A program made the position numbers and the translations under genes. A DNA stretch of 45,537 bases, taken from the NCBI RefSeq assembly GCF_016790065.1, contig NZ_JAEUPY010000103.1, positions 1 to 45,537 on the forward strand. Reading direction: 5' to 3'. How positions within the stretch are numbered: the first letter of the stretch is position 1; every line of letters starts with the position of its first letter. Shown here one piece after another: positions 18,499 to 28,437 of this stretch. The notes below the pieces were generated by a model. That model saw nothing but the letters and a program-made list of their open reading frames with translations. It ran no database searches and was not told where the DNA came from. Source of the stretch: Steroidobacter sp. (lineage in GTDB: Bacteria; Pseudomonadota; Gammaproteobacteria; Steroidobacterales; Steroidobacteraceae).

Positions 18499-21135
18499 GT
18501 GGCGGCAAAACTGGCGCGATTCTCGTGGCTTCCCGGCGGGCTGGCAGCAGCTCTGGCGGTAGCCGTGGGTCAGTGGGTCTCCTCCCCCACCGAGTTGCCC
18601 CTGGAGCGCACCGTCTACGACCGCATGATGGCCTCGGTCGAGGTCGCACCATCCCGCGAAGTGGCCATCGTCGCCATCGACGACGCCAGCCTGGCGCAGC
18701 TGGGCGAGTGGCCCTGGCCGCGCGATGTGCATGCCAGCCTCATCGATAAGCTGAAAGCGGAAGGCGCGCGCGTCGTCGCTTTCACCGTCCCCTTCGACAC
18801 TGCACGACGCACCAGCGAACGCGAAAAGGTACGCGCTGCGCTGGCGCTGCTCGAGTCCAGCAATCTGGGTAACTCCGATCAGGCCCGACAGCTGCGCAAA
18901 CTGCTGGGCGAATCGGCCAGCGGCCGCGATCCGGATGCTCACCTGGCCCGGGCCATGGCCTCGCACGGCAATGTAGTGTTGCCGGTCCATATCCGTCTCA
19001 ATGACAAGGCCTCGACCGACGAGCAAATTCCAGCGCGCTTCGCCCCTGGTGCCGATCCTTCGGTGTTGCGCCGTGCCGCTGGCGCCGAAATTTCCATGTT
19101 GCCCGCGCCCGTGTTTCTCGCCGAGGCCAGCGGCATCGGCCACACGCAGATACAACCGGATAGCGATGGCGTGGTGCGTACCGACCTGGCCGCCGTGCGC
19201 GTCGGTACCGGTCTCGTACCGTCACTCGCTGCTGTCATTGCAGGTCGCGCCCTTGGCGTCGCGCCAAACGAAATGGCATTCCATTCCAGCAATGCGCTGA
19301 CCCTGGGAACTCGACGCACGCCGTTGGATTCCACTGAGCACAGTCGGCCACGATATTTCCCCGCGAGCGGCGTGCAGGCATTTCAGCAATATCCCTACTG
19401 GCAAGTGTTATCGGGTGGTGTGCCGAAGGGCCAGCTGCGCGACAAAGTGGTGCTGATCGGCTTGATGAACAGCGACACCGTGGACGATGCCCTCGCGACG
19501 CCGACGAGCAAAGCCACGCCGCCGGTCATCGCCATGGCCAGCGCCGTGTCCAGTTCGCTCGCCAGCCAGATGTATGCTCGCCCCTCGTATGCACCGGCGA
19601 TCGAATGGAGTGTGGTCGCGCTGGTGGTGCTGTACGCAGCCTTCATGCTGCCGGCGATGGGTGCCGCGATCGGCGGCATGACCACAGTATTGTTCATGGT
19701 GCTGTTGGCAGGCACCGAAGTCATGTTGTTGCGTTCGTCGCAAACCTGGCTGCATTTATTACTGCCGTGCCTGGCGCTGGCTGCCGGCTACGGTTTGTAT
19801 CTGGTCGGCGAGTTGATCCGCCGCGCCAACATCCGAGCGCAAGGCGTGCTCGATCCCGGCGCGAATTTGCGTTCGCTCGGCCAGACCTTTCATAAGCAGG
19901 GCCAATTGGATCTGGCCTTCGAGACCTATCAACGCTGCGCGCTGGATGCGCCGACGATGGAGCTGCTCTACAACCTCGGCATGGATTTCGAACGTCGCGC
20001 GCAGCTGTCGCGAGCATCAGCGGTGTACACCTACATCGCGACGCGCGATCCGAATTACCGCGAACTGAAGATGCGTCGCGCACGCGTGCGTGAAGAGCCT
20101 TCGACTCACGACATAGCCCGCGACCTGCCGCCGCCGGTTGCGCAACCTCAGGTGAAACGCGAACCGCCGCGACCGATCCGGCCGCAGCGGCCGGCACTCG
20201 ATTTGAAAGACCACGAACAAACTGTGCCCGATCTGCCCGACTATCCGCCGCCGGCACGCGCCTCCTCCAAGCGCACCCTCGGCCGCTATGAAATCGAACG
20301 CGAGCTCGGCAAAGGTGCCATGGGCATCGTGTATCTAGGCCGCGACCCGAAGATCAATCGCGTGGTGGCCATCAAGGCCATTCCGCTCGCCGAGGAGTTC
20401 GAAGAGGACGACCTGGTCGAAGCCAAGGCGCGTTTCTTCCGCGAGGCCGAGATGGCCGGCCGGCTGAATCATCCGGCCATCGTCACGGTCTACGATGCGG
20501 GCGAAGACAATGGCCTTGCGTACATCGCAATGGAGTATCTGCGCGGTCATCATCTGAGCACCCACACCGACTCGAAGCAGTTGCTGCCGCCGAAAAACGT
20601 GATGCTGCTCGTCGCCCGGGTGGCGGACGCTCTGCACTATGCGCACCGGCAGAACGTCGTTCATCGCGATATCAAACCAGCTAATATAATGTTCAATCCC
20701 GAGACGGATGAATTGAAGATCACCGACTTCGGAATTGCACGCCTGACCGATACAAGCCGAACCAAAACCGGAATCGTCCTGGGCACACCGTCATTCATGT
20801 CACCGGAACAGCTGGAAGGGCGCACGCTCGACGGTCGCTCCGATCAATTCGCCCTCGGCGTGAGCCTGTACCAACTGCTGTGCGGTCAACTGCCGTTCCG
20901 CGCCGACTCGATGCCGCGACTGATGCAAAAAATCGCCACCGAGCCGCATGCGCCGATCCGCATGATCCGTCCCGACTTGCCGCCGGAGATCGAAACCATC
21001 ATCGACCGCGCCTTGTCCAAATCGGCAGACGATCGTTACGTGACTTGCGCCGAACTGGCCCTGGCCTTGCGCGCCCTCGCCGGGCCGCCGGAAAAGAGCG
21101 CGGCCCAGGCCGAACACGAGTGGTTGCTACCTTGA
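18499..21135 (+). CDS. CHASE2-TPR-serine/threonine protein kinase, membrane-bound
   Basis: An 878-residue sensor kinase. In order: one N-terminal transmembrane helix (about 8-26); a CHASE2-type extracytoplasmic sensor (about 27-365, with VAIVAIDDASLAQLGEWPWPR and KVVLIGLMNSD); three closely packed helices (about 368-442); two TPR-like repeats (about 450-530, FHKQGQLDLAFETYQRCALD); a proline-rich linker (540-590); and a Hanks-type kinase domain (595-862). Catalytic elements are intact: glycine loop G604-G609, K626 in VVAIKAI, HRDIK at 722-726, D743-FG and GTPSFMSPEQL. The GTG start at 18499 has AGGCGG about 9 bases upstream. It is the first gene of an operon with a PP2C phosphatase and an FHA protein. 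A TATACT box at 18412-18417 may be its -10, but no good -35 is seen. Confidence 0.93.
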   Translation: MAAKLARFSWLPGGLAAALAVAVGQWVSSPTELPLERTVYDRMMASVEVAPSREVAIVAIDDASLAQLGEWPWPRDVHASLIDKLKAEGARVVAFTVPFDTARRTSEREKVRAALALLESSNLGNSDQARQLRKLLGESASGRDPDAHLARAMASHGNVVLPVHIRLNDKASTDEQIPARFAPGADPSVLRRAAGAEISMLPAPVFLAEASGIGHTQIQPDSDGVVRTDLAAVRVGTGLVPSLAAVIAGRALGVAPNEMAFHSSNALTLGTRRTPLDSTEHSRPRYFPASGVQAFQQYPYWQVLSGGVPKGQLRDKVVLIGLMNSDTVDDALATPTSKATPPVIAMASAVSSSLASQMYARPSYAPAIEWSVVALVVLYAAFMLPAMGAAIGGMTTVLFMVLLAGTEVMLLRSSQTWLHLLLPCLALAAGYGLYLVGELIRRANIRAQGVLDPGANLRSLGQTFHKQGQLDLAFETYQRCALDAPTMELLYNLGMDFERRAQLSRASAVYTYIATRDPNYRELKMRRARVREEPSTHDIARDLPPPVAQPQVKREPPRPIRPQRPALDLKDHEQTVPDLPDYPPPARASSKRTLGRYEIERELGKGAMGIVYLGRDPKINRVVAIKAIPLAEEFEEDDLVEAKARFFREAEMAGRLNHPAIVTVYDAGEDNGLAYIAMEYLRGHHLSTHTDSKQLLPPKNVMLLVARVADALHYAHRQNVVHRDIKPANIMFNPETDELKITDFGIARLTDTSRTKTGIVLGTPSFMSPEQLEGRTLDGRSDQFALGVSLYQLLCGQLPFRADSMPRLMQKIATEPHAPIRMIRPDLPPEIETIIDRALSKSADDRYVTCAELALALRALAGPPEKSAAQAEHEWLLP

Positions 21136-21170
21136 CCACCAACAGCGGCTTGTCAGGGAGGGACTGCTAG

Positions 21171-21989
21171 GTGCGTGGCAAGATCCGCTCCGTTGGTTTG
21201 AGCGACGTGGGTCGCGTGCGTGAGCACAACGAAGACACCATCGGTGTCGACGCCGACATCGGCTTGTTCGTGCTGGCCGACGGCATGGGCGGCTACAACG
21301 CCGGCGAAGTCGCCAGCGGCATCGCCGTGAAGACCGTGATGAGTCTGGTGAAGGAAGCGGTCGAGCGTCAGGACATGACCTCCTCCGATCCGGAAACCGG
21401 CATGGCCCGGCCCAGCATCGTGTTGCGCGACTCGATCGCGCGCGCCAACAAGATCATTTATCAGACCGCCAAGACCCAGCCGCAATGCGAAGGCATGGGC
21501 ACCACCATCGTCGCTTGCCTGTTCTTCGATAACCGCGTGGCCATCGCCCATGTCGGCGACTCGCGGCTGTACCGGTTGCGCGCCAACCGGCTCGAGCAGA
21601 TGACCATGGACCACTCGCTGCTCCAGGAGCTGGTGGACCGGGGCTTCTATTCGCAAGCCGAAGCCCAGCGGGCCACCAACAAGAACTATGTGACCCGCGC
21701 CCTGGGGGTAGAGCCCACGGTGGAGGTCGAGGTCCATGAACAACCTGTCGATAAGGGTGATTTCTTCTGCCTGTGCTCGGACGGCCTGTCCGACATGGTC
21801 GAAGACGACGACATTCACTTAACTATGAGCACCTTTAGTGCTAGCCTTGAAACGGTAGCTAAGCAATTGATTCAATTATCGAACGACAACGGCGGTCGCG
21901 ATAATGTGTCGATCATCCTTGCGCAAGTTGTGGACTCGTTCGCAGCGCGAACGGGGGTTGTTGACAGAATCTTGCGCTGGTTTGGCTAG
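21171..21989 (+). CDS. PP2C-family serine/threonine protein phosphatase
   Basis: A 272-residue metal-dependent phosphatase of the bacterial Stp/PppA type, expected to reverse the neighbouring kinase. Conserved PP2C motifs appear in order: SDVGRVREHNED (D22), LADGMGG (D37), MGTTIVACLF, AHVGDSRLYRLR, DHSLLQELVDRG, CSDGLSDMVEDDDI (D204) and GGRDNVSIIL (D244). All the metal-binding aspartates are present. The GTG start at 21171 has AGGGAGG (21155-21161) 9 bases upstream, a strong site. It lies 35 bases after the kinase and 38 before the FHA gene. The sequence ends in a short tail without a membrane segment, so it is cytoplasmic. Confidence 0.96.
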   Translation: MRGKIRSVGLSDVGRVREHNEDTIGVDADIGLFVLADGMGGYNAGEVASGIAVKTVMSLVKEAVERQDMTSSDPETGMARPSIVLRDSIARANKIIYQTAKTQPQCEGMGTTIVACLFFDNRVAIAHVGDSRLYRLRANRLEQMTMDHSLLQELVDRGFYSQAEAQRATNKNYVTRALGVEPTVEVEVHEQPVDKGDFFCLCSDGLSDMVEDDDIHLTMSTFSASLETVAKQLIQLSNDNGGRDNVSIILAQVVDSFAARTGVVDRILRWFG

Positions 21990-22027
21990 TCACAGGTCGT
22001 AGACTGGCACTACTCGGGGACGAGCAA

Positions 22028-22825
22028 ATGGCACGGTTGATCCTCAGCCTGGACGGTTCGGTCATGGCCGAATACAACATGAACAAGGAGCGGTACACCG
22101 TCGGCCGCCTCCCCGATAATGACATTCGGATCGATAATCCAGCCGTGAGCGGTCACCACTCGCTGGTGATCAATATTCTCAACGACTCGTTCCTCGAAGA
22201 CTTGAACAGCACCAATGGCACTTACGTCAACGGCAAGCTGATCAAGAAACATGCGCTTCAACATGGCGACGTGGTCACCGTCGGCCATCATCAGCTGCGC
22301 TTCGTGGACACCCAGAGCTCGGACAGCGAGCCCGACGAATTCGAAAAGACCATGGTGATTACGCCGGGTTCGGCCGTGGCCGCCGTCGCTGCCAAGAAGG
22401 CCTCCGCCATGTCGCCTCCGCCGCCGCCTGCTCCGACGCCGAAGGCTGCTCCGACTCCGAACCCTGCTGCGTCGTCCGCGGCGCCGCCGCTGACTCGCCC
22501 GATGCCGCCTCCTGGCAGCACCAGCGCCACCGGCGAGCACGCCGGCATCGCTCTGCCCAAGGCCAAGCTGCAGGTGTTGAGCGGCGCCTTCGCCGGCCGC
22601 GAACTCGAATTGAACAAGGCATTGACCACGCTCGGCCGTCCCGGCGTGCAAGTCGCTGCGATCACCCGCCGTGCCGATGGTTATTTCATCGTGCACGTCG
22701 ACAGCGGCAAGCCTGGCGATTATCCGTCCGTGAACGGCACCGCGATTGGCGAGCAGGCTCGCAAGCTGGCCGACAACGATGTGATTCTGCTGGCCGGCGT
22801 GAAGATGGGCTTCTTCGAGGGCTGA
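22028..22825 (+). CDS. FHA-domain protein with a second, degenerate FHA-like domain
   Basis: A 265-residue phosphothreonine-reader protein. The N-terminal FHA domain (about 4-92) keeps the binding residues: YTVGR (G26, R27), SGHH (41-44) and LNSTNGTYVNG (60-63). A linker rich in proline and alanine follows (about 125-165). The C-terminal part (about 178-265) again looks like an FHA fold (LTTLGRPG, DSGKPGDYPSVNGTAI, NDVILLAGVKMGF), but the Ser-His of the recognition loop is missing. With the kinase and phosphatase upstream it completes a write-erase-read phosphorylation set. The ATG at 22028 follows GGGACGAG. Its stop codon lies inside a hairpin at 22819-22835. Confidence 0.92.
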   Translation: MARLILSLDGSVMAEYNMNKERYTVGRLPDNDIRIDNPAVSGHHSLVINILNDSFLEDLNSTNGTYVNGKLIKKHALQHGDVVTVGHHQLRFVDTQSSDSEPDEFEKTMVITPGSAVAAVAAKKASAMSPPPPPAPTPKAAPTPNPAASSAAPPLTRPMPPPGSTSATGEHAGIALPKAKLQVLSGAFAGRELELNKALTTLGRPGVQVAAITRRADGYFIVHVDSGKPGDYPSVNGTAIGEQARKLADNDVILLAGVKMGFFEG

Positions 22826-22835
22826 GACTCAGCCC
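22819..22835. terminator. Hairpin between convergent FHA and PIN-TPR genes
   Basis: GGGCTGA (22819-22825, including the FHA stop) pairs with TCAGCCC (22829-22835) around GAC. Six bases further, TTCAGGCCTGAA (22841-22852) is a perfect 12-base palindrome spanning the stop codon of the opposing gene. Neither is followed by a T run. Together they may act as a shared two-way termination zone in a gap of only 16 bases. Confidence 0.4.
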
Positions 22836-22841
22836 GGCATT

Positions 22842-25295
22842 TCAGGCCTGAAGATAGCCCTCAACATAGAGGGGGGCGTTCAGAGCCGCCTCGGCCAGCT
22901 TGAGCCACTTTGCCGCGCGCAGTACGTCGTACGGCATGACGGGCGCTTCGACAAATTCCCGCGCCACTTCCTTGAGTTCTTGCCGACGCCGTTCCTGCTC
23001 GGCTGCCGTCGCCGCTGGCGGCAGAAACAACGCGCCAGCGCATAGAAACACCAGTCGCACCAGGGTCGGCATCGGGGTCGACATCGGCGTGCACCGGAGC
23101 AACTCGATCATCCGCACCGCCAGCTCGGGCATCAGACTCGCAGCATCGTTTCTTAACTTGGCCAGCAGCTGCACCTGTAAAAAACTCATCGCGAGCTGTT
23201 GTTTCATCGCGCTCCGGATATCTTCATCCGACTCTGCGTCCACAGTGGACAACACTTGCAAGTGTCGCTCGCAAAGCTCTTTGAGCGGCTGAGCGCGGTA
23301 GGCGCTCAAATGTTCACGTAAGTCGGCGGAGCCTGCGGGCTCGCGCGGCATGAACTCCTGAAAATGCAGTCTGGAGATTTTGACGATCAACTCCGCCGCC
23401 TCGAAGCGCGGATCTCGATAAGCCAATGGCTCAGCCAACTGCTGCAAACTCAAAGGCCGCGGCTGCGCCAACTGCCGCTCTCTAGCAATGCTCAGGAAGT
23501 GCTCGCTCTCATATAGATCTTCGACGCGCGTTGCGCTCAGCAAGCGACAGACAGCACAGAGATAAGCCGCCTCATCGCCTTTCACCGAACTCGTGGGCCA
23601 CTTCCGCCGATCCAGCGTCTCCGCTACCGAATACGCGGCGCTCGCGACCGTATACGCAGAACGCCATTCGCCGGCCATCGCGAACGCGACTGCGAACACC
23701 ATGTAGCGCGTGTAGCCGGTACCGTCCTCCAGATCTTCGAGCGCAGTAATCGCGCCGTGATCCAGTTGCGCTTGCGCGTTGTCCAACGACGCCGTTTGCT
23801 GTAGCTGGCGCACGAATTGTCGGGTCTTCGGCAGCGCTTCGAATTTGATGACCGGAATGACCCGGCTAGGCCAACGATGCGTAGCGCGATCGATGCTCAA
23901 AAAGCCGGCCAGCAATCCGGCCGCCGTGAAGCGGCTCATCGCGGCCTGACTCAAGCCCCGCATCTTCTGTCGCAACTGACTCAGCAGCGTCCGCGTCTGC
24001 TCGTTACCCAACCTGACGGCGCTCTTGGTTTGGTCGTCCTGCCGCTGCACGCGCCGATCGAACTCGACCAACCGTTCGATATTGGCGACGTTGCGCAGGT
24101 AGGTGGCCCACTCGAGGCGCGCCTGCCTGGCGGCGACGGCAACTTGCTCCTCCCGGGCCAGCGGCGGCTTGTCGGCTTTGGTAAAGGCCATCATCAGCCA
24201 ATGAGCGAACGAGCGGCCGGCGCCTTGTCCCAGCGTCTCCTCGGGGAATTTGGCCAGAAACTGCGGCGTCTCGACGCCGGCACACTCGAAGAACTCGGGG
24301 TCTGCGAGAAAACAGCCTGGGCTACGCAGATAGCGCTGCTCGAAGGTTTCTTCCCTATCGAACCAGCGTCTGCTGGCAACGTACTCGACGGTGTTGTCGC
24401 CGGTAACCAGACAAAGGCGCTGAGCCAGCGACTTGTCCTTCACCGCCGACTCGAACTGGGCATTGATCCACTCGACTCTGGCCAGCACGGCCGCATCGAT
24501 GTCGTTGTTGGTCGGCCAACGATCGCCGGGCGCGGCACCGACCCGGGGCTTGGCGGTGCGCTGTTGGTTCAGATGTTTCAGCCAATGTTTTTCGAAGTTC
24601 GCGATGGCGCTCTGGCCGGCTGCATCGGGCACGGGCAACAGCGCGCTGCCATTCATCACGATTCGGTCCGCGGGTAAAATATTCTGCGCTTCCTGGAGCA
24701 ACGCGATTCGATGCAACTCCACCAGCGGTCCCTCGCGGATGCACTTATCTAATTTTTGTACCAGCTCTTCGATCTGCTTCTGCTGCAGCTGGGTAATGCC
24801 GCGCTCCGAGCTGAGCAGTGCGTGAACTTGCTCGTACTCTTGCTCGAGCGAGCTTTGTTCTCGCTTGGCGCTTTGGTAGACCACGTTCCAGATCGAGCCG
24901 AGCTCGACCTCGTTGGGCTCGAGCAGTAGGAACGGAGCAAATCGGGACTTGATGCGGCGCCGGCTGAAATATTCGCCCAGAATGTAACCGAACGCTTGCT
25001 GAGCGCGCCAATCGTCCCACACCAGATTCTTTAGATAATGCCGAGTGGCCGCCGGGCGCTTACGCCACCCGTTTTCGGGAAGGTCGTTACGATGCACCCT
25101 CGAGGGTGCGGTGATGTCGGTGACCACGTCGGAATCGATGACATAGTAGACGGCGCTGTTGGCGCGCACGAGTTCGCGGTCGTGCTGTAGCCTTCCGAAC
25201 TGTTGTTTCAGTTCGCGCGCTTTGTGGAGTAGATCCGACAGCTCTCCCAGCGCCTTGTCGCTCTCCTCGGCCGACACTGTAGATTCAGGAGGCAT
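22842..25295 (-). CDS. Unknown protein with N-terminal PIN-like domain and TPR-like helical tail
   Basis: An 817-residue protein that I do not recognise as a named family. After a short coiled coil (about 15-45), residues 46-335 carry the acidic pattern of a PIN-type ribonuclease: YYVIDSDVV (D54, D56) at the first strand, an acidic cluster LLLEPNEVEL (E126-E131), NDIDAAVLARVEWINAQF (D265, D267) and RLCLVTGDNTVEYVA (D300). The domain is longer than usual, with a charged coiled-coil insert at about 140-210. From about 390 to the end it is helical; RYMVFAVAFAMAGEWRSAYTVASAAYSVAE resembles a TPR hairpin. The start overlaps the upstream gene's end by 11 bases, so translation is probably coupled. 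It is the third gene of a leftward operon facing the kinase-phosphatase-FHA operon. A nuclease role is inference from motif spacing only. Confidence 0.7.
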   Translation of the reverse strand: MPPESTVSAEESDKALGELSDLLHKARELKQQFGRLQHDRELVRANSAVYYVIDSDVVTDITAPSRVHRNDLPENGWRKRPAATRHYLKNLVWDDWRAQQAFGYILGEYFSRRRIKSRFAPFLLLEPNEVELGSIWNVVYQSAKREQSSLEQEYEQVHALLSSERGITQLQQKQIEELVQKLDKCIREGPLVELHRIALLQEAQNILPADRIVMNGSALLPVPDAAGQSAIANFEKHWLKHLNQQRTAKPRVGAAPGDRWPTNNDIDAAVLARVEWINAQFESAVKDKSLAQRLCLVTGDNTVEYVASRRWFDREETFEQRYLRSPGCFLADPEFFECAGVETPQFLAKFPEETLGQGAGRSFAHWLMMAFTKADKPPLAREEQVAVAARQARLEWATYLRNVANIERLVEFDRRVQRQDDQTKSAVRLGNEQTRTLLSQLRQKMRGLSQAAMSRFTAAGLLAGFLSIDRATHRWPSRVIPVIKFEALPKTRQFVRQLQQTASLDNAQAQLDHGAITALEDLEDGTGYTRYMVFAVAFAMAGEWRSAYTVASAAYSVAETLDRRKWPTSSVKGDEAAYLCAVCRLLSATRVEDLYESEHFLSIARERQLAQPRPLSLQQLAEPLAYRDPRFEAAELIVKISRLHFQEFMPREPAGSADLREHLSAYRAQPLKELCERHLQVLSTVDAESDEDIRSAMKQQLAMSFLQVQLLAKLRNDAASLMPELAVRMIELLRCTPMSTPMPTLVRLVFLCAGALFLPPAATAAEQERRRQELKEVAREFVEAPVMPYDVLRAAKWLKLAEAALNAPLYVEGYLQA

Positions 25296-26361
25296 ATTTA
25301 TGGCCCACCGCTTGCTCCCGCCAGTTGTGCAGGTCTATTGGGCGCTTCGGATCGGAATACTGCTTCCATAGATCCGGCCAGGCCGCAACCACAGCATCGA
25401 CCACTCTCCGAGTCTCGGGCGGCAACGCCGCGAAGCGTAAACCTTCACTGTGGAACGTCAGCTCCACCTCGGGATCGGCGTACTGCGCCACACCGATACT
25501 CGACTGCGAGTCGTCGCTCCACCAATAGAACAGCGGCCCCTCAGCACCGAACAGCGCATCCAGCAACCATGTATCGCGCGCATCGGCGGCGCCGATCTGC
25601 AGCTTATAAAAGTCGCGCGCCAGAGCGTGAAACGCCACGCTGACGATGCGCTCTCCCGTCAGATGAGCAAGCTGCTTCTGCTCCGGCTGGCGTCGATGCA
25701 TCTCGTTCATATGAGAACTGAGCAGCTCGAGATGTGCGATAACCTCGGTCGGCGCGGTGCCGAGCAAAGCAGCGAGCGTGCGAGGCGCGAAGCTGCTGTC
25801 GAAATAGTCGACTTTGCGGACCACTCTCCGTAACGCGCCGGCCAGCTCCAAGCGCAGCGCCTGCTCTTGTTTTCTCTCGATGCCTGCATAGGCGTCACGG
25901 GCGAAGGCCAAGCCCAGGGTTTGCAGACACACGCAACAATCCGGGAACACTTCCTCTCTGAACACATCCTCGGGCCAGTGCCTGCTATCGTCGCAAGCAA
26001 TCTTCGCAAGGGTAGTGGCGGCGCGAATACAAAGAAGGTTGGCGGTCAATCGCAGGAATTGGCTCAACAGCCATCGGCGTTGTTGAGCGTCGAGCTGCGC
26101 AAATTCATGCGACTCGTGGCAACAATACCCACCCAACATGACCACGCCAGCGCGCAACGATCGCTGCAACTCCGGCGGTGCCACGGCATACAGCTCTTCA
26201 ATTCCTTCCGCGGGATGCTGCGCGAGATGTATGAAAGAGTGCGGCGCGAATGGATCCTCGGACGAATCTCTTGCCGTGTCGAAAAAGCCGCGCGCCAACC
26301 ACGACGCCACTTCGTCGAGCGACTTCTCCGCCAACAACCTCACTGACTCGGGCCGTGGCAT
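25285..26361 (-). CDS. Unknown protein, middle gene of the PIN-TPR operon
   Basis: I do not recognise this 358-residue, mostly helical protein. It starts MPRPESVRLLAEKSLDEVASW. Visible features are cysteine/histidine-rich spots (GYCCHESHEF and FPDCCVCLQ), an arginine-rich helix (ALRRVVRKVDYFDSSF) and an aromatic-rich C-terminal part (PLFYWWSDDSQSS). It has no signal peptide or membrane segment. The ATG at 26361 shares its A with the TGA of the preceding gene (TGATG), which decides the start; an in-frame ATG at 26442 would overlap that gene by 82 bases. Its own end overlaps the PIN-TPR gene by 11 bases. The overlaps imply production in fixed proportion with both neighbours. Confidence 0.75.
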   Translation of the reverse strand: MPRPESVRLLAEKSLDEVASWLARGFFDTARDSSEDPFAPHSFIHLAQHPAEGIEELYAVAPPELQRSLRAGVVMLGGYCCHESHEFAQLDAQQRRWLLSQFLRLTANLLCIRAATTLAKIACDDSRHWPEDVFREEVFPDCCVCLQTLGLAFARDAYAGIERKQEQALRLELAGALRRVVRKVDYFDSSFAPRTLAALLGTAPTEVIAHLELLSSHMNEMHRRQPEQKQLAHLTGERIVSVAFHALARDFYKLQIGAADARDTWLLDALFGAEGPLFYWWSDDSQSSIGVAQYADPEVELTFHSEGLRFAALPPETRRVVDAVVAAWPDLWKQYSDPKRPIDLHNWREQAVGHKYAS

Positions 26362-27233
26362 CAAGGAACTCCAGGACGAGCGCCGAACCGGCACTGCGGG
26401 CAGGGTCGTTCTTTTGCCAGCACATGTTTCATGTGACGCCACAGTCGCAGGCTGGAGCCGAAGTTAGCACGATTTTCTCGCGTGACACCCAATGGCAACA
26501 GCTCAACTTCGGGGCACTCGCCTAGCGAGGCCTCTTCCATCAATAGTTCCGGCAAGCCCGCGATGCACTCCCCAGTCTTGGCCGAGTCCAACATCTTCAG
26601 GTCTACCGTATAACCGCAGTTCCCCGCCGCTAAGCCCGCATGAGTTTGTAAAAAGCGCGGATTGAGCATGGCCTCGATAGCCGTCGGCAGGAAGGCGCGA
26701 CGCGCCGGCGGTGGCTGAAATGAAACTGCCACCAACTCGACCGACTTGCCGTATTGAACGATTCCAAGCAAGTCACGCATGCGGTCGGCAATCGTCACTC
26801 GTAAATCACCGAGGCACTTGTAGATGGCCCGATCGCAAGACTCGCGGGGCGCCACCCAAAAATAGGGACGTTTGCGGGCCGACCATCGAACCCGCCTGGG
26901 CAACCGTTCGAAATCATGACCGGTGCGCGCGCTCGAATGGATGCACTGCTCGCTGTCGGCGGCTGTGACCACCGTCGTCATGCCGCCGGCAAAATCTTCA
27001 GGAACACTCGCCACCGGGTGGCGCAGCGTCAACTTGAGCGGCGACCGATGCAATTGTCGTCGCAGATTCCCCAGCAGCGAATCGGTGTCAGTTGGCGCAA
27101 TGCGCGAGTCCGGTGCGAAGGCCAGAATCGCTCGCAGCTCGTCGCAACTCAGCAGCTGGCGCATGTGCGCCAGCGTGAGATTGCAAACAAACACTTGCCA
27201 AAGCAATCGCGGCAGCATTGCTGCGAACGTCAT
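26361..27233 (-). CDS. Unknown protein, first gene of the PIN-TPR operon
   Basis: A 290-residue protein of unknown function. It begins MTFAAMLPRLLWQVFVCNLT, mildly hydrophobic but not a convincing signal peptide. The middle has basic patches (RLPRRVRWSARKRPYFWV) and a conserved-looking segment AIEAMLNPRFLQTHAGLAAG. The C-terminus ends with CPQC at 278-281, a possible half zinc-binding or redox motif. GGAG lies 9 bases before the ATG at 27233. It opens the three-gene leftward operon, 127 bases from the end of alr, and that gap shows no promoter I would trust. It could be a regulatory or adaptor subunit; nothing in the sequence proves this. Confidence 0.7.
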   Translation of the reverse strand: MTFAAMLPRLLWQVFVCNLTLAHMRQLLSCDELRAILAFAPDSRIAPTDTDSLLGNLRRQLHRSPLKLTLRHPVASVPEDFAGGMTTVVTAADSEQCIHSSARTGHDFERLPRRVRWSARKRPYFWVAPRESCDRAIYKCLGDLRVTIADRMRDLLGIVQYGKSVELVAVSFQPPPARRAFLPTAIEAMLNPRFLQTHAGLAAGNCGYTVDLKMLDSAKTGECIAGLPELLMEEASLGECPEVELLPLGVTRENRANFGSSLRLWRHMKHVLAKERPCPQCRFGARPGVP

Positions 27234-27347
27234 GTTCCTGGCTCCGAGCCGACTGCAGATCCGGGACCGAAGAGGTCGGGAATGGGTTGTTGTTATTTAC
27301 CCGAGCAAAGCTAGCATCGGGCGCGGCACAGCAGTAACCCGCTATAA

Positions 27348-27369
27348 CCACGTAGTTTGATCAACGTGG
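27348..27369 (-). repeat. Inverted repeat over the alr stop codon
   Basis: CCACGT (27348-27353) and ACGTGG (27364-27369) flank a loop that itself contains the palindrome TTGATCAA (27357-27364). The alr stop codon is inside. The minus strand continues TTATAG, too short for a clear terminator T run. It is a weak terminator or operator candidate between alr and the unknown operon. Confidence 0.3.
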
Positions 27370-28437
27370 AGCTGCGTCTCTCAATGTGACTCGTTGTGCG
27401 ACTCGGCACACGAGTTCATAACATGTCGTATCAGCATACGGCGCGAGACGTTCCGCAGGCGCGCCATTTCCCCAGACGACAACTTCGTCACCCGATTTAG
27501 CTGCAGGCAGATCGGTGATATCGATGGCGATCATGTCCATCGACACTCTGCCGGCGATCGGCGCTTCTTTGCCGCCAACCAGAACCGGTGCACCGCTGCG
27601 CGTCGCTCTCGGGAAGCCGTCGCCATAGCCGATTGCAGCGATGCCGATGCGCGATGGACGCTGTGCGCGCCAGATGCCGTTGTAGCCCACAGCTTCGCCG
27701 ACACCGATGTTTTGAACGGCGATCAGATGAGTCGATAAAGTCATCGCGGGCCGCAAGCCGAAGTCAGCGGCGGTTTTGTTGGGCATGGGTGACATGCCAT
27801 ACAGCATCAAGCCGGGCCGCACCCAGTCCTGATGGGACTCGGGCCAGGAGATCACCGCTGCAGAGTTGGCGACACTGCGCTCCAGACCGAGCGGCGCGAC
27901 CGACTCATCGAACAAACGCAGTTGCTTCGAGGTGACTTCGCCCCGCTCTTCCGACTCCGCCAGATGAGTCATCACTCGAACCAAGCTCACCGACGAACAG
28001 CGATGTAACCGTGCATAGGCCGCGGCGAACTCTTCGATATGGAAACCGAGACGATTCATGCCGCTGTTGAGCTTCAACCAAACGACGAAGCGGTGCGAGC
28101 CGGCGAACTGCTCCAACACGTCGATCTGTTCGGGCGAGTGCACGACGATCTCGCAGTGTTCTCTGGCGGCGAGCGCGAACTGCTCCGCCCCGAACACACC
28201 TTCGAGCAACAGAATGCGTTGAGTGATGCCGGCCTCGCGGAGCACGATGGCGTCGGACAGACGAGCAACACCTAAGCCATCCGCGTCCGCAAGAGCGCGC
28301 GAGACACGGATCATTCCGTGGCCGTAACCATTGGCTTTGACGACAGCGATGATGCGAGAACGAGGCGCCATCTTCCGCGCCACTGCCAGATTACTGCGCA
28401 ACGCCGCGGCATCGATGGTCGCAACCGGGAAGCTCAC
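27361..28437 (-). CDS. alr: Alanine racemase, biosynthetic
   Basis: PLP enzyme interconverting L- and D-alanine for peptidoglycan. The product has 358 residues, the usual length. The PLP lysine K34 lies in AVVKANGYGHG, the second catalytic base is the tyrosine of IGYGDGFPR, and LMLYGMSP and RVSMDMIAIDIT are family signatures. The start is GTG at 28437 (MSFPVATIDAAALRSNL), 27 bases after dnaB. It is the last gene of the rpsF-rpsR-DUF2232-rplI-dnaB-alr string. Confidence 0.97.
   Translation of the reverse strand: MSFPVATIDAAALRSNLAVARKMAPRSRIIAVVKANGYGHGMIRVSRALADADGLGVARLSDAIVLREAGITQRILLLEGVFGAEQFALAAREHCEIVVHSPEQIDVLEQFAGSHRFVVWLKLNSGMNRLGFHIEEFAAAYARLHRCSSVSLVRVMTHLAESEERGEVTSKQLRLFDESVAPLGLERSVANSAAVISWPESHQDWVRPGLMLYGMSPMPNKTAADFGLRPAMTLSTHLIAVQNIGVGEAVGYNGIWRAQRPSRIGIAAIGYGDGFPRATRSGAPVLVGGKEAPIAGRVSMDMIAIDITDLPAAKSGDEVVVWGNGAPAERLAPYADTTCYELVCRVAQRVTLRDAAPR

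Follow-up and report, generated by a model that had tools for sequence, protein, structure and literature searches.

The question raised by this locus is what three tightly packed genes of no recognised family are doing between core genes of a Steroidobacter genome, and whether they act as one unit. The window, meaning the whole stretch of DNA analysed (45,537 nucleotides), is an entire contig of an 8.5-Mb genome of 937 contigs with a listed contamination of 5.6%. Three genes are read leftward from its minus strand: gene A (26361..27233, 290 aa) and gene B (25285..26361, 358 aa), both ORFs of unnamed families, and gene C (22842..25295, 817 aa), encoding a predicted PIN-type nuclease with a long C-terminal part. 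A and B share one base at a TGATG junction, with the start of B inside the stop codon of A, and B and C overlap by 11 bases (25285-25295) at ATGCCTCCTGA. Gene sizes, direction and both overlaps had been given in an earlier note on this DNA and were confirmed by the ORF coordinates. The convergent FHA gene stops at 22825, 16 nt from the end of C. At the other end a gap of 127 nt (27234..27360, minus strand) lies between A and alr, which ends at 27361; it is a possible site of the trio promoter, and none was recognised there. Counts of promoter-like sites (0 versus 1.2 in shuffles) and terminator-like sites (9 versus 4.9 +/- 2.2) in the region were uninformative. The surroundings were found as the note had described them, with kinase, PP2C and FHA genes on one side and alr, dnaB and rplI on the other (names from sequence), and the same genes occur together in same-genus relatives. 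The CHASE2-type kinase, PP2C phosphatase and FHA genes (18499-22825, named from sequence) adjoin alr in these relatives and are core neighbours outside the trio. No defence gene was recognised beside the window trio.

The trio was found to be inserted between these core genes. Of the 13 other genomes in the genus, 11 supplied orthologous FHA loci. Wherever a same-genus locus holds both flanks (9/9), alr adjoins FHA with 20 to 326 nt between match ends, and tblastn with A, B and C gave no match at these nine loci. Similarity of the window to its relatives ends about 3 nt past the FHA stop codon and restarts inside the 3' end of alr. The stretch without similarity to the same-genus empty sites (22826..27400) comprises the inserted segment and the last bases of alr. 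In GC and third-position GC the trio (0.67-0.74) differs little from the flanking genes (0.68-0.79), so either the gain is old or the donor genome was similar. Repeats in the region are short, and no target-site duplication was recognised by eye.

A total of 14 loci with C are known, the window counted. At ten of them (the window, L042-L048, L052 and L065) A, B and C lie in the same order on one strand, and the nine outside the window belong to eight genomes, all of one class. The earlier note had proposed a functional unit and had named a lack of co-occurrence in other genomes as an observation that would refute it; the trio does recur, at nine further loci. Leave-one-out profiles recovered each window protein, A with 45.0 bits (best non-member 3.1), B with 22.9 bits (3.3) and C with 250.9 bits (5.0). 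Together with the homologues in the same order at the nine other loci, this identifies the three as real genes beyond chance. Over all 14 tests the best non-member reached 8.1 bits, where the non-member maxima disregard higher-scoring "decoys" that were true members from L065 and L049 left in. The L065 trio, which stood outside the training set, matched all profiles (A 4.5e-38, B 5.2e-35, C 1.4e-99). One genome, G557, holds two complete, strongly diverged trios of different subfamilies (L044, L065). In G868 (L050) C stands with different partners, without A and B. In G539 (L051) a marginal B was detected (E 0.0045), with no A within the 466 nt remaining on the contig, and in G412 (L066) the contig end falls inside C. 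A 339-residue fragment in G513 (L049:6324-7343) matches the C-terminal part of C only, has no A or B among the ORFs around it and looks like a decayed copy of C.

The trees of the three families agree closely. Across the ten loci r was 0.95 for A-B, 0.93 for A-C and 0.97 for B-C (0 of 5000 permutations per pair), and across seven core loci it was 0.98-0.99 (6, 1 and 7 of 5000 permutations). The gene in the B position of G868 was tried as a true B and leave-one-out failed to recover it. For this reason it was dropped from the tree test and from the B control of the VapC-block test described below; the B alignment as built, and its Pfam and PDB searches, retain it. The marginal B of L051 is absent from the tree test. 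Overlapping or closely spaced genes at the ten loci combined with congruent trees make it likely that A:B:C is a fixed partnership, in support of the functional unit. Relationships among the copies depart from those of their hosts: the C protein of G659 shares 81% identity with that of G601, a genome of another family, but 46% with that of G525, which belongs to the same genus as G659. This identity, the congruent trees and the two diverged trios of G557 point to transfer of the whole trio, apparently between families. Judged from these comparisons, A-B-C is an inherited, mobile unit.

The distribution of C is patchy. Between genus and order level it was present in one genome among 148, its own; at class level it was present in two of 274 (12-row profile; own and G412) and at phylum level in 12 of 398 (2-row profile; own counted). 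In one other class C was found in 9 of 48 genomes and was absent from 39; all nine were known from the phylum search, and the added find was the second copy in G557. We are aware of the fact that the genome sets searched for C overlap and that the counts are not additive. Searches centred on G868 and G539 returned only these genomes themselves (1/210 and 1/78), and a search of the relatives of G412 returned G412 alone (1/113). Searching 369 genomes with C gave 23 with E <= 0.1, of which the own genome and G412 were accepted; a C match in G311 (5.5e-4) was dropped, the surrounding ORFs being judged unrelated. Searching 148 genomes with B gave 7 with E <= 0.1, of which only the own genome was accepted (best of the others 5.6e-4 over 52 residues). 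Genome contigs searched with C and with B gave no confirmed homologue. Nothing was confirmed in viral contigs searched with C, the 12-row and 5-row C alignments and the 6-row A alignment, or in plasmids, for which the tblastn queries were A, B, C and a pair of C relatives.

The three proteins were then compared with family libraries. For window A, B and C nothing was found above the curated cut-offs in Pfam or NCBIfam, and there was no significant match in PADLOC (PADLOC-DB 2.0.0) or PHROGs. For the relatives, the lowest Pfam E-value was 0.12 among nine A members, 0.015 among 12 C members and 0.14 among 11 proteins from the B position, a set that includes the one non-true B of G868. Scans of relatives in PADLOC and NCBIfam covered A (both libraries) and C (PADLOC): nine A members gave a best NCBIfam E of 0.077 and nothing in PADLOC, and 12 C members gave a single weak AbiEi match (E 0.028). 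PDB searches gave nothing significant for C alone or for the profiles of A, B, C and the C N-terminus. Residues 141-214 of C matched topoisomerase IV subunit A, which was ascribed to helical similarity because the matched region lies inside a helical insert; the frames of about 690-790 aa matched in that region in the 369-genome search are presumably ParC. A literature search found no description of the trio, and such a description may still exist. The absence of a named family, as read by the earlier note, stood for window A, B and C with these libraries, and no member of A, B or C matched a known housekeeping family, the other outcome that the note had set against its proposal. The reading of C as unrecognised has to be modified for its N-terminal third, which looks PIN-like.

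The first 375 residues of 13 C sequences contain three invariant acids, D54 (codon 25134..25136; 12/12 rows reaching that column), E131 (24903..24905; 13/13) and D267 (24495..24497; 13/13), all encoded on the minus strand and candidate catalytic residues. They lie in a PIN-like region, residues 40-345 (24261..25178, minus strand), in which a helical insert separates the second motif from the third. For comparison, 29 VapC-like sequences were gathered from genomes of the genus and order; PF18476 (PIN_8) was found in 0 of 79 genomes and yielded no comparison set. When four ungapped VapC blocks were set colinearly on the C profile, the best placement put the VapC acids D, E and D on D54, E131 and D267, and the T-x-D block on TG-D300. 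The score was 24.0 versus 16.2 +/- 1.9 (maximum 23.0) for permuted columns (0/500). Controls scored 16.3 (reversed), 19.1 (C-terminal part), 18.2 (A) and 21.1 (B), and were equalled by 52, 11, 18 and 6 per 100 of their own permutations, respectively. Alignment of C with the VapC-like sequences by hhalign was weak (probability 7-8%), with motif I first (E about 0.005) and motif IV second (E 0.33, weak), both correctly placed; reversed controls gave E 0.07-0.085. These sequence patterns make a PIN-type nuclease domain at the N-terminus of C probable, and we hold this with good confidence.

A clue to what such a nuclease might do comes from G868 (L050:1387-6610, L067). There a 613-residue FAD/NAD-binding protein is encoded first, an unnamed protein of 296 residues second and C third. 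The 613-residue protein matches LmuA (profile positions 6-254 of 827, E 2.3e-47). The middle protein, for which neither Pfam families nor PDB chains gave a match, contains a short stretch, GDAGALV, reminiscent of a trypsin motif. Downstream of C follow a phage integrase, PDC-S31 (2.6e-32) and an SMC-like LmuB match (3.5e-26), and farther downstream an RTasSbcB match (2.4e-130). The LmuA-like gene, the 296-aa gene and C may make up a Lamassu-like variant. At one trio locus, G528, a SoFic match (1.5e-51) lies upstream. The PADLOC scan of neighbours covered just ten hand-picked proteins, which makes the defence context a clue and not an enrichment. The hint in the earlier note at an accessory defence or stress module gains support from the empty sites, the patchy distribution, the apparent family-to-family transfer and the one C in a defence island.

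We give about an even chance to the reading that A-B-C is a mobile three-gene conflict module, serving defence or dormancy, in which C is a nuclease effector restrained by A and B. As C is found with other partners, C would be the effector and A and B sensor and/or inhibitor. The N-terminal metal-dependent PIN-type nuclease (D54, E131, D267) would sit on the long C-terminal scaffold and probably cut RNA. A and B would bind C and keep it inactive, and the trigger that they sense would most likely be phage or other foreign nucleic acid. Once freed, C would halt growth of the affected cell. Computation establishes that the genes form a unit, are inherited jointly, were inserted and apparently transferred, and that the three acids of C are invariant; the PIN fold with its activity, the RNA target, the restraint of C and the phage trigger are inferred.

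Among the closest known systems are the VapC-type PIN ribonucleases (PF01850), which have the same succession of strand-D-T-x-V, a helix with E-L, a D-A helix and a strand followed by T-G/x-D. The resemblance to VapC motifs, the mobility and the overlapping genes could also fit a toxin-antitoxin-like selfish module, with C as a toxic PIN nuclease and A and/or B as antitoxins, kept by addiction and not by a benefit in defence. VapBC systems, however, consist of two small genes, one for an antitoxin that binds DNA and one for a PIN toxin of roughly 130 aa. Unlike VapC, C has 817 aa, the helical insert, a long C-terminal part and no match to the Pfam model, and two large partners stand in place of one small antitoxin. 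The gene sizes of 290, 358 and 817 aa do not resemble such pairs, no antitoxin family appeared in the Pfam and NCBIfam searches, and in G868 a defence island holds C with partners other than A and B. We consider such a selfish module unlikely.

A second alternative is that C is no nuclease, its N-terminal acids being part of another fold and the activity residing in A or elsewhere. Among 12 C members no PIN family was found in Pfam at E <= 1, and PDB profile searches gave no PIN chain for C at E <= 10. A single-sequence model of residues 1-380 had a mean pLDDT of 40.6, and models were too poor for a fold search. The fourth acidic motif (T-x-D) is degenerate in C, with G299 in 12/13 and D300 in 5/13 sequences, and A has a conserved block of its own. 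PIN members often vary at the fourth motif. Against this alternative stand the three invariant acids and the colinear placement of all VapC blocks, in register and equalled by none of 500 permutations, and we rate it as distinctly improbable. A host stress- or RNA-processing complex, in which C would be a regulated RNA-maturation enzyme with A and B as adaptors and no conflict role, would suit the flank-like GC and third-position GC and the mostly unremarkable trio neighbours (by eye), but is made similarly improbable by its patchy occurrence, with 147 of the 148 genomes at genus to order level and 39 of the 48 in the richest class lacking it, and by trio copies that depart from host relationships.

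PIN enzymes usually cut RNA. This habit, taken with the antiphage PIN domains reported for DS-3 and DS-5 (PMC13092281), led us to prefer trigger-dependent, growth-stopping RNA cleavage. According to the same paper, a PIN ribonuclease domain is required for phage defence in DS-3 and DS-5, and DS-5 also requires a second protein with DUF5830 and an AcrIF4-like domain (PMC13092281). The proposed likeness to the trio is a PIN domain with a role in phage defence, set beside C by description only; the difference is one and two proteins in DS-3 and DS-5 (PMC13092281) versus three in the trio. The comparison with Lamassu is similarly divided: in G868 C directly follows the LmuA-like gene and an LmuB-like protein is encoded downstream, whereas in PADLOC the window trio matched neither LmuA nor the SMC-like LmuB. 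Nuclease-protease pairs are common to Hachiman, AVAST, Lamassu and DRT systems (PMC12799240). There an effector nuclease is swapped from one defence context to another, as may have happened to C in G868; these pairs, unlike C, combine MBL-fold nucleases with trypsin-like proteases (PMC12799240).

At its most specific, and with a little less than even confidence, the trio may be an undescribed three-component bacterial immune system in which A and B, from two families with no recognised relatives, sense infection and release C; C would be the founder of a divergent PIN clade marked by the helical insert and the large C-terminal scaffold, and would be swapped between this system and Lamassu-like loci. 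If this is right, it would represent a compact mobile system made of three families absent from the libraries searched here, and its effector would belong to a PIN clade that profile searches of Pfam and the PDB fail to detect. With invariant acids and several diverged natural copies available, the hypothesis lends itself to direct testing.
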